DNA from: Chloroflexota bacterium | GTDB taxonomy: Bacteria > Chloroflexota > UBA11872 | DNA length: 64,000 nt | Assembly: GCA_022820025.1 (NCBI GenBank) | Contig: JAJEGF010000030.1 | Coordinates: 62,001-126,000, forward strand | Direction: 5' to 3' | Shown here: one piece after another, positions 30,442 to 33,623 of the stretch | Layout of the letters: each line of letters begins with the position of its first letter | Position numbering within the stretch: the stretch's first letter is position 1 | Position numbers and translations under genes: made by a program | Notes under the pieces: generated by a model | The model's database searches: none | What the model saw: only the letters and a program-made list of their open reading frames with translations | Told to the model about the DNA's origin: nothing

Positions 30442-31590
30442 ATGCGAGTAGCCGTGGACGCCGTTGCCGCCGGCTCCGGCCTGCTGCCCGGCGCCGGTCC
30501 CCTGCGCCACACCACCGTCAACCTCGTCGCCGCGCTCGCGGATTTGGCGCCTGACACCACCTGCCACGTCTTCTGCCCGGCCTTCGCCGTCCTCGACGAA
30601 CTCACCGGTCGCCCCAACGTCTTGGTCCACCCGCTTCGCGCCGCCGTCCGTAATCGCCCCATCCGGATTCTCTACCAGCACACCGCCTACGCCCACGCCC
30701 TCCGTCGCGTCCGCCCGCACGTCACCCTGCACACCGTCAACGTCGCGCCAGTCACAGGTCCGCGGCCCCGCGTCGTCATGCTCCGTTCCCTGCAGGGATT
30801 CACCCACGCGCGCCAATTCGGCGGCTTGCGACGCTGCTACTTGCAGTCCGCGCTCCGTCGCTCGCTGCTCGCTGCCGATCGCGTGGTCGCCGGTTCCTCG
30901 GCTTCTGCCCACGACGCGCTGCGCCTGCTGGACCTCGATCCGAACCGCCTTCGCGTCATCCCCCACGGCCTGGCCCCGCACATCGCCAGCGCCCTCGACA
31001 AGCCGCTTCCGGAATGCCAAACGCAACGTCCCTACCTGCTCGCCGCCTCCACCCTATACGGCCACAAGAACTATCCGCGCCTGCTGCAGGCGTTCGAATT
31101 GCTCCGTCGACGCAACGCGATTCCGCACGAACTGCACATCGCCGGCGCCGACGCCGATCTCACCGCCGCCGACCTCCGTCGCATGGCCAAGGATCTGGGC
31201 GTAGGCGACGCCGTGAAGCTCCTCGGCCCTGTCCCCCACGACCGCATCGGCCCCTTGTACCAACAGGCCGACGCCCTGGTCTACGTCTCCCTCGCCGAAA
31301 CCTTCGGCCACCCGCCCCTGGAAGCCATGGCCTGTGGCTGCCCCGTCATCGCGTCCAACACGACCTCCCTGCCCGAAATCACCGGCGGCGCGGCCGAGCT
31401 GGTCGACCCGACCGACGTGCAGGCCATCGCCGCAGCCATCGAACGCGTCGTCACCCAACCACGGCGCCGAGCCGAACTAGTGGCCCGCGGTAGGCAGCGC
31501 GCCCAGGACTTCACCTGGGCCCGCACCGCCGAAAGCCTGCTGGCCGTCCTGCACGAAGCCGCCGACTCGACAGCGTCAACCAGTCGCTAG
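30442..31590 (+). CDS. GT4-family glycosyltransferase
   Basis: About 382 residues. GT-B fold with the family C-terminal signature: YLLAASTLYGHKNYPRLLQAFELL opens the donor domain, and ETFGHPPLEAMACGCPVIASNTTSLPEITGGAAELVDPTD contains E-x7-E. The N-terminal acceptor domain includes HVTLHTVNVAPVTGPRPRVVMLRSLQGF. The track ATG at 30418 is also possible; I chose the second ATG at 30442 because AAGGCGG lies five bases upstream. It shares a four-base CTAG with the convergent DUF72 gene, giving both a TAG stop. Its sugar and acceptor are unknown. Confidence 0.87.
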   Translation: MRVAVDAVAAGSGLLPGAGPLRHTTVNLVAALADLAPDTTCHVFCPAFAVLDELTGRPNVLVHPLRAAVRNRPIRILYQHTAYAHALRRVRPHVTLHTVNVAPVTGPRPRVVMLRSLQGFTHARQFGGLRRCYLQSALRRSLLAADRVVAGSSASAHDALRLLDLDPNRLRVIPHGLAPHIASALDKPLPECQTQRPYLLAASTLYGHKNYPRLLQAFELLRRRNAIPHELHIAGADADLTAADLRRMAKDLGVGDAVKLLGPVPHDRIGPLYQQADALVYVSLAETFGHPPLEAMACGCPVIASNTTSLPEITGGAAELVDPTDVQAIAAAIERVVTQPRRRAELVARGRQRAQDFTWARTAESLLAVLHEAADSTASTSR

Positions 31591-32420
31591 CTGTTTGAGT
31601 AACCCCGCCGCTCAAGCTCCGCGGCCATCCGCATCGCCGCCTCAACCCGATTCGGACCCTTCTTGTTGTAGAAAATCACGTAGCTGGCCGTCTCCGGCCC
31701 GTGCCGTGCCATAACCAGATCCGCCAGTTCGCCGATCTCAGAGTCCGTGTAGACGTGCCCCGCCCGCAGCGCCCGTCGCTCGCGAGCCGCGACCTCGCCG
31801 GCATCGTCGCGTCCCATGAAGCGGTAGTAGGCAACGTTCGGCGCCGTCAGTTCACGTACGGGTTCGGGCAGCCCGGCAGCCGCCGCGCGAGGCTCGTCGG
31901 GAATCACCATCGCCAGGCCGAGCGCCCGCAGCCGCTCCACCGTCTCGGCACCACGTTCACCCTCCAGCCAGCTCGCATGCCGAAACTCAATCGCAACCGG
32001 ATCTTCACCTAATCCATCCCGCAGGGCGGCCAGGTGCTCGTACGTCTCGGGTCGCGGGCGCACGTTCGCGCCCAACTGCACCAGGAAACCGCCAAACTTC
32101 CCGGCCTCCCGCAACGGCCGCACGCCTTCGTACTGGTTCTTGATGTACTCGGCCGCGAGCCGCGAGTCCCGCGGCCGGTTCGCCACCGCCCGGTGCGCCT
32201 TCACCAGGAACCTGAACGCCTCCGGCGTCTGCTGGGCCCACTGCGCGTAGACCGACGGTTCGATACGCCGATAAAAGCTGGCGTTGACCTCCACTAGCGC
32301 CAGCCGGGACGCGTAGTACGCCAATCGCTCTGCCGCCTTCGTCCCCCGCGGATAGAACCCCGTGTGGTCCGACCAATTGGCCGTACCGACCCAAACGCGA
32401 CCGGCGCCAGGCTCAGACAT
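31587..32420 (-). CDS. DUF72 family protein
   Basis: 277 residues of the DUF72 (YecE-like) TIM-barrel family. VWVGTANWSDHTGFYPRG is the family N-terminal motif (GTSGWxYxxWxxxFYP variant), VEVNASFYRRIEP the second, and RFLVKAHRAVAN, FLVQLGANVRP, VAIEFRHASWL and YYRFMGRD are conserved blocks. The biochemical function of the family is not established. The track starts at a GTG (32453); the ATG at 32420 (MSEPGAGRVWVG) fits the family better. Upstream is a promoter and an unusual structured leader (32482-32694). Confidence 0.9.
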   Translation of the reverse strand: MSEPGAGRVWVGTANWSDHTGFYPRGTKAAERLAYYASRLALVEVNASFYRRIEPSVYAQWAQQTPEAFRFLVKAHRAVANRPRDSRLAAEYIKNQYEGVRPLREAGKFGGFLVQLGANVRPRPETYEHLAALRDGLGEDPVAIEFRHASWLEGERGAETVERLRALGLAMVIPDEPRAAAAGLPEPVRELTAPNVAYYRFMGRDDAGEVAARERRALRAGHVYTDSEIGELADLVMARHGPETASYVIFYNKKGPNRVEAAMRMAAELERRGYSNS

Positions 32421-32481
32421 CAGCGGGGCTGTCTCCTCGGAGCGGCGCCGCACGCCGCGCGTGCTTTCGCGAAACCGCGCG

Positions 32482-32653
32482 GAGGAGATTCCGACGGCGC
32501 GTCGGAGGCACGGCCGCCAGCCTTCGCCGCCGGCCGTGGCGGCAGGGGGATGCCCACGGCCCTCAACAGCGCGTCCGGCTTTCAGCCGACCTCTGGCAGC
32601 GAATCGCTGGCGGGCGGGTTGTAGGGGGTTGCCGCGCCGCCGGAATCTTCCTC
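32482..32653 (-). ncRNA. Candidate structured RNA or leader (long-range 20-bp stem)
   Basis: On the minus strand, seven or so bases after a consensus promoter, GAGGA(A)GATTCCGGCGGCGCG (32653-32633) can pair with CGCGCCGTCGGAATCTCCTC (32501-32482). This gives 20 base pairs with one G-U and one bulged A, and encloses 131 nt. Inside are further hairpins, for example GCCGTGG/CCACGGC, and after it CCGCGCG/CGCGCGG precedes the DUF72 gene. No known riboswitch, 6S, SRP, tmRNA or RNase P signature is seen. It may be a leader of the DUF72 gene, a separate small RNA, or a MITE-like element with inverted ends. Confidence 0.4.
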
Positions 32654-32666
32654 ACACGGTCAACTC

Positions 32667-32694
32667 AATATACCGTACAAAAAGCGAACGTCAA
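32667..32694 (-). promoter_or_regulatory. Consensus sigma-70-type promoter reading toward DUF72
   Basis: Minus strand: TTGACG (32694-32689), 16-bp spacer, TATATT (32672-32667). Transcription would begin near 32660, about 240 nt before the DUF72 ATG and just before the long stem. It is one of the best -35/-10 pairs in the window. Confidence 0.6.
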
Positions 32695-32756: not shown

Positions 32757-33623
32757 ATGGCCCGCCCCAAGGTTCTCGTCACCGGCGCCGCCGGCTACGT
32801 GGCGGCCCAGATGCTGCCCACCCTTCGCGAACGCTACGACTGCACCCTCATCGACGTCACCACCACCGACCGCGACGGTGGTGAGGTTCCCGGCGTCCAG
32901 GTCCAGAGCATGTTGGACGACCGCGAAACCCTCCGCCCGCTCTTCACCGGCTGCGACGCGGTCATCCACCTGGCCTTCATTCGCCGCACCGAGGACGTCC
33001 GCGAGCACTTCGAGGGCGAGATGGACAACATCCGCATGGCCTACAACGTCTTCCGGCTGTCGCTGGAAGAGAACGTCCGCCGCGTCGTGATGGCCAGCTC
33101 CAACCACGCCGCCGACTTCTACGAGCACCTGCTGCGCAGCCGCGAGATGGACATGCTGCAAGCCACCAACGACATCCGCCCGCTCTCCGACAACTACTAC
33201 GGCTGGGCCAAGGAGTCCTACGAGCACCTGGGCTTCGTCTTCGCCACCGGCACGCTCGGCCGCAGGCTCCAGAACGTCCACATCCGCATCGGCGCCCCTC
33301 GCCAGCTCGATCCCACCGAGCTGTCGGGCGACATCCAGGGCTATTCCGTCCGCCGCAACCTGGGCGCCTACATCAGCCCGCGCGACCTGACCCAGCTCTT
33401 CGTCAAGTCCATCGAAACCGAGAACATCGACAACGAGTGGGGCGTTCCCTGGCAGGTCTTCTACGGCATCTCCGACAACACCCGCTCCTTCTGGGGTCTT
33501 GAGAACGCCCGCCGCGTCATCGGCTACGCGCCGGAGGATGACTCCGAGGTCACCTGGGCCCGCGAGGTGCACGACAACCTCACGTCCAAGGGCGTGGTCG
33601 GACGCGTCGGCCAGGCGCCATGA
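32757..33623 (+). CDS. NAD-dependent epimerase/dehydratase (extended SDR)
   Basis: 288 residues from the ATG at 32757. KVLVTGAAGYVAAQML is the GxxGxxA/G Rossmann motif of extended SDRs, VIHLAFIRR is the HLA strand, and VRRVVMASSNHAADFYEH followed by NYYGWAKESYEHLG supplies the Ser and the YxxxK-type dyad (YGWAK). IRIGAP is the conserved strand after it. The family resembles uronate dehydrogenase and related sugar-acid dehydrogenases or epimerases (hydrogen transfer using NAD). It overlaps the creatininase-like gene by ATGA and probably acts in the same catabolic step set. Substrate unknown. Confidence 0.88.
   Translation: MARPKVLVTGAAGYVAAQMLPTLRERYDCTLIDVTTTDRDGGEVPGVQVQSMLDDRETLRPLFTGCDAVIHLAFIRRTEDVREHFEGEMDNIRMAYNVFRLSLEENVRRVVMASSNHAADFYEHLLRSREMDMLQATNDIRPLSDNYYGWAKESYEHLGFVFATGTLGRRLQNVHIRIGAPRQLDPTELSGDIQGYSVRRNLGAYISPRDLTQLFVKSIETENIDNEWGVPWQVFYGISDNTRSFWGLENARRVIGYAPEDDSEVTWAREVHDNLTSKGVVGRVGQAP

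Follow-up and report, generated by a model that had tools for sequence, protein, structure and literature searches.

A conserved structured RNA gene behind a putative LexA-type operator in one family of uncultured Chloroflexota

Introduction

What does the sequence between a minus-strand promoter and a DUF72 gene encode in an uncultured Chloroflexota genome, where two long complementary arms follow the promoter? The initial annotation of the window, the 64,000-nt stretch of DNA analysed here, described a structured RNA of no known family, likened it to a riboswitch or a 6S RNA, and offered a MITE with inverted ends as an alternative. We compared the locus with relatives in the window's genus (g1) and its sister genus (g2), which belong to one Chloroflexota family. 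Our reading, to which we give a probability of roughly 0.7, is that the locus specifies an SOS-induced, LexA-repressed structured noncoding RNA that would act in trans through a C-rich loop, with read-through in g1 into the downstream DUF72 gene, here called DUF72-B.

A LexA-type box in the promoter spacer

The annotated minus-strand promoter stands. Its -35 element TTGACG (32689–32694) and -10 element TATATT (32667–32672), found by sequence and consensus scan, are separated by a 16-nt spacer and form the only sigma-70-like site between 32350 and 32800, where shuffled DNA gave 0.0. TTGAC was kept in 11/11 g1 orthologues. The initial annotation overlooked what occupies the spacer, which is the usual place for a repressor. 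It is filled by the LexA-type SOS box GTTCGCTTTTTGTACGGTA (GTTC-N7-GTAC; 32671–32689, minus strand), which partly overlaps both promoter elements and occurs once in the 64-kb window against 0.01 expected. The box was retained at the RNA gene in the 11 g1 orthologues and in six g2 genomes. The spacer is, judged by sequence, a putative LexA-type operator.

We read the host regulon through pattern searches of the genome at ≤3 mismatches to GTTCGCTTTTTGTACGGTA, with the reversed pattern as a control. The box had nine sites in 3.6 Mb and the reversed pattern had none. Sites lay upstream of lexA (the 199-aa protein is a TIGR00498 equivalog, E = 2.6e-55), dinB, a RecA/ImuA-like gene, and an SbcD/Mre11-like nuclease (phosphoesterase) gene, with others at an M78 (IrrE/ImmA-like) peptidase gene, a radical-SAM gene of the Rv2578c type, and mutS; one (L029) had no clear gene downstream. 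A search of the host genome with the RNA region found a second place, where 22 identical bases (GTTCGCTTTTTGTACGGTATAT) stand upstream of another gene. A close variant of the motif was present in five relatives, where it preceded dinB, imuA-like, M78 peptidase, SbcD-like, and DnaE-type (PHP-domain) genes as well as the RNA, and the reversed variant had 0 matches. Because the box precedes lexA itself and repair genes, we infer that LexA is the protein bound to it (GTTCGCTTTTTGTACGG). The RNA gene likely belongs to the LexA regulon of this Chloroflexota family.

A literature search found no paper on the LexA boxes of these Chloroflexota. The alphaproteobacterial LexA box is a direct repeat, GTTC-N7-GTTC, with a spacing of 7 (PMC3323433). 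The layout is common to both, with GTTC-N7-GTWC/GTWT here, whereas the Chloroflexota box has a strongly T-rich spacer and a GGTA tail.

Other box-associated genes had features of their own. The box at the host mutS, with three mismatches, overlaps the start region of the gene. An M78 peptidase gene (L024/L002, 1499–2065, plus strand) starts a few bases from the -10 element of its SOS-box promoter and is apparently leaderless; similar M78 genes with a box were present in G001, G011, and G013. In G013, G018, and G002, an SOS-type box stood upstream of an M20 peptidase (ArgE/DapE-like) gene, which would be an unusual regulon member. Two sister-genus dinB promoters (L131, L142) carried two SOS-like boxes in tandem (TTCGCTATTTGTTCGTTCGGTATTTGTCTGGTA).

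RNA fold and conservation

The structured RNA occupies 32473–32661 on the minus strand, as delimited with covariance models R1 and R2 and alignments A1–A3 and A5. Its transcript ends were deduced from the closing stem, which sets its length at 189 nt; relatives measure about 145–205 nt. The arms of the 20-bp stem in the initial annotation pair as claimed and enclose about 131 nt, but the stem is longer: the minimum free energy (MFE) fold adds ACCGTGTG/CGCGCGGT, so that the 5' arm GACCGTGTGAGGAAGATTCCGGCGGCGCG (32661–32633) pairs with the 3' arm (32501–32473) over up to 28 pairs. The 5' arm was nearly invariant within the genus, and 97–99% of cells in the 3' arm were paired. The MFE was -100.1 kcal/mol, compared to -82.2 ± 4.5 in dinucleotide shuffles (z = -4.0; 0/200), and all 17 homologues folded below their shuffles (z of -2.6 to -7.5). 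Internal hairpins varied in sequence and length between congeners. The C-rich loop ATCCCCCTG (32543–32551, minus strand) was invariant in the 11 g1 genomes, and its C-run was predicted to be largely unpaired across the 17 sequences, with probabilities >0.9 in g1 and 0.56–1.0 in g2 (minimum in L049). Rfam searches at gathering and relaxed thresholds gave nothing above chance, and no T-run terminator was found downstream of the closing stem.

A DNA search of 40 relatives recovered the orthologous region in 10 congeners. Among the g1 orthologues, the box plus 5' arm (GACCGTGTGAGGAAGGTTCCGGCGGCGCGG) was nearly invariant and ATCCCCCTGCCGC was invariant. Model R1, built from the 11 g1 sequences, found one locus per genome, with the reverse complement of the same hairpin scoring weakly in two genomes. 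Its weak matches in g2 proved real on further inspection: all six g2 genomes contained a 150-nt relative with an SOS box directly upstream. The g2 RNA starts with CCGTGTGRGG, or CCGTGTGGAG in one genome, has the same 3' arm as g1 (CCTCTTCCNCGCGG), and carries AATCCCCTG or AACCCCCTG as its C-rich loop (AATCCCCTGCC or AACCCCCTGCC in context).

Covariation between homologues, proposed earlier as a check, was found across the genera. In alignment A5 (12 sequences from both genera), which was fitted to the model and therefore favours the structure, 95.2% of cells were standard pairs and 12 pairs showed double changes that retained pairing, compared to 5.4 in shuffles, with 0/500 reaching 12. The closing stem accounted for five of the 12, and pairing was lost once the partners were slid against each other. 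Within g1 alone, covariation was modest (5 pairs with double changes vs 3.2 in shuffles) because the stem hardly varies.

These alignments also bear on whether there is an RNA gene at all, rather than a regulatory inverted repeat acting as DNA or a coding N-terminal extension of DUF72. The DUF72 frame in the window is open back to about 32652, as an extension would have it, but a stop lies downstream of the RNA in 5/11 species, indels between homologues are not multiples of 3, and pairing is preserved through the double changes. We regard both versions as highly improbable. The coding extension was rejected on the interrupted frames and the indels, and to the extent that sequence can decide, the region is not coding. 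What the comparisons indicate instead is an RNA gene that is real, conserved, and unmatched in Rfam; the initial claim of a structured RNA outside the known families now extends to 17 genomes with pairing kept.

Distribution and copy number

The box and RNA were present in 11/13 genomes of g1 and 6/6 of g2, at one copy per genome. The two congeners without them, G001 and G002 (the latter only 76% complete), gave chance-level matches only and had no box. In a GTDB collection of 85k species, the box+CCGTGTG pattern matched 14 contigs, all from Chloroflexota MAGs, and viral contigs had no match. R2 found nothing outside g2 among 301 Chloroflexota genomes; R1 barely reaches g2 and R2 missed g1 under the filters used, so more distant relatives could be missed. 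Within the genomes searched, the RNA was thus not found outside one family of uncultured Chloroflexota. Bin names, RHO and COS among them, point to the sponges Rhopaloeides and Coscinoderma, and the bacteria that carry the RNA are probably sponge-dwelling (compare PMC8163846).

Copy number and placement dispose of the MITE, or any other mobile inverted-repeat element. The long inverted ends are what such an element would have, but the search for further copies that the initial annotation proposed returned a single-copy RNA, the position is orthologous within the genus, and both operator and loop are conserved. We consider this explanation refuted, with a negligible residual probability, and return to the RNA gene.

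DUF72-B and the stand-alone locus in g2

Downstream of the RNA in the window is DUF72-B, the second DUF72 (YecE-like) paralogue of this genus (31587–32420, minus strand; ATG at 32420; Pfam PF01904, E = 6e-47). The divergent upstream neighbour, an NAD-dependent epimerase-like gene named from its sequence (32757–33623, plus strand), lies outside the unit. DUF72-B directly follows the RNA in 11/11 g1 genomes that have the RNA, and G001 and G002 lack both. With no terminator found between the RNA and DUF72, this arrangement is what one would expect of a cis-acting 5' leader, an attenuator, riboswitch, or stability element tuning DUF72 under an SOS promoter.

The sister genus points the other way. 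All six g2 genomes keep the box, the RNA, and the loop without DUF72 downstream. Their unit is flanked on one side by an acetoacetate-decarboxylase-like gene and on the other by a convergent AhpC/TSA-family gene (L043/L044), whose stop codon falls about 20 nt past the closing stem where the locus was read; the downstream sequence is common to three of the other four g2 genomes. The g2 genomes carry two DUF72 genes, both away from the RNA locus, and the second of these had no SOS box upstream in the one instance inspected (L114). Within g1, the sequence separating the RNA from the DUF72 start differs in length and is not conserved; the hairpin previously described just before DUF72 shares this lack of conservation. 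No alternative terminator or fold sequestering the ribosome-binding site was seen. A cis-acting leader is therefore unlikely in our estimation, and the riboswitch-like interpretation gives way as the main reading.

Since g2 keeps the RNA without DUF72 and g1 pairs the two, the RNA appears to be a gene in its own right, and DUF72-B would be an SOS gene by read-through from the RNA promoter, probably induced in this manner in g1 only. A published survey located genes of the unassigned DUF72 family close to those for DNA-damage polymerases and noted a structural kinship with UV-damage endonuclease (PMC11791011). The position of DUF72-B behind an SOS promoter fits both observations, and that position together with the endonuclease kinship makes it a DNA-repair candidate.

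Comparison with known regulatory RNAs

Noncoding RNAs under LexA control have been described chiefly in enterobacteria, where they serve as antisense antitoxins (IstR). The istR-1,2 genes are listed among LexA-regulated loci, and IstR-2 of the enterobacterial tisB/istR locus is, like the RNA described here, a noncoding RNA from a LexA-box promoter (PMC8072944). The Chloroflexota RNA differs in being larger and rod-like with a long closing stem, and it belongs to another phylum with another LexA box; no tisB-like or other small toxin ORF was noticed beside it. Our RNA is best read as a new family within this known type, the SOS-regulated noncoding RNA, whose function we infer.

The loop invites a second comparison. 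The alpha-r14 or 'cuckoo' sRNAs (NfeR1) carry three CCUCCUCCC anti-Shine-Dalgarno loops per RNA and share with our RNA an invariant, unpaired C-rich loop on variable stems, likely a seed for pairing with mRNA (PMC10746234). The Chloroflexota RNA instead has a single loop, AUCCCCCUG, along with a long closing stem, SOS control, and targets that are putative. We did not find CCUCCUCCC in its unpaired hairpin loops, where the loop reads AUCCCC(C)UG, and a CCUCCUCC stretch lies within the paired 3' arm. Complements of the RNA's invariant 13-mer gave 13, 10, 16, and 13 matches compared to 9, 9, 8, and 4 for the reversed control, a modest excess in which some matches are the RNA gene itself. No convincing ribosome-binding-site context was found among these matches.

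6S RNA (RF00013) resembles our RNA in its length of about 190 nt, its paired ends, and its long rod with an internal bubble. The idea that the RNA sequesters RNA polymerase, in place of a 6S that is undetectable in the family, gains from this closed rod and from the Rfam 6S matches in 5/5 genomes of a sister family vs 0/19 in the RNA's own. However, the RNA does not match the Rfam 6S model, its sequence is unlike the sister-family 6S, and its promoter is of the LexA type; we know of no LexA control of 6S. Other clades of the class were also without a 6S match, so the model may be insensitive. The earlier likening to 6S is thus not borne out, and we judge a 6S-like RNA very unlikely.

Discussion

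We favour a LexA-repressed RNA that acts in trans. In undamaged cells, LexA on the box between the -35 and -10 elements would block RNA polymerase. Upon DNA damage, LexA would be cleaved, releasing synthesis of a 145–205-nt RNA that would start near GACCG. The pairing of its ends in a stem of up to 28 bp would probably make the RNA stable, and an internal hairpin would display the C-rich loop AUCCCC(C)UG. This loop would probably pair in trans with G-rich, Shine-Dalgarno-like sites of target mRNAs. In g1, some transcripts would continue into DUF72-B, which would thereby join the SOS regulon. A wider role, as a global regulator at the post-transcriptional or RNA polymerase level during DNA damage that possibly replaces 6S in the family, strikes us as distinctly unlikely.

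If this reading is true, the RNA would represent a new family, and the SOS response of uncultured Chloroflexota would have an output not known before. The locus would also tie a DUF72 protein to DNA damage, making the repair role proposed for the family (PMC11791011) testable.
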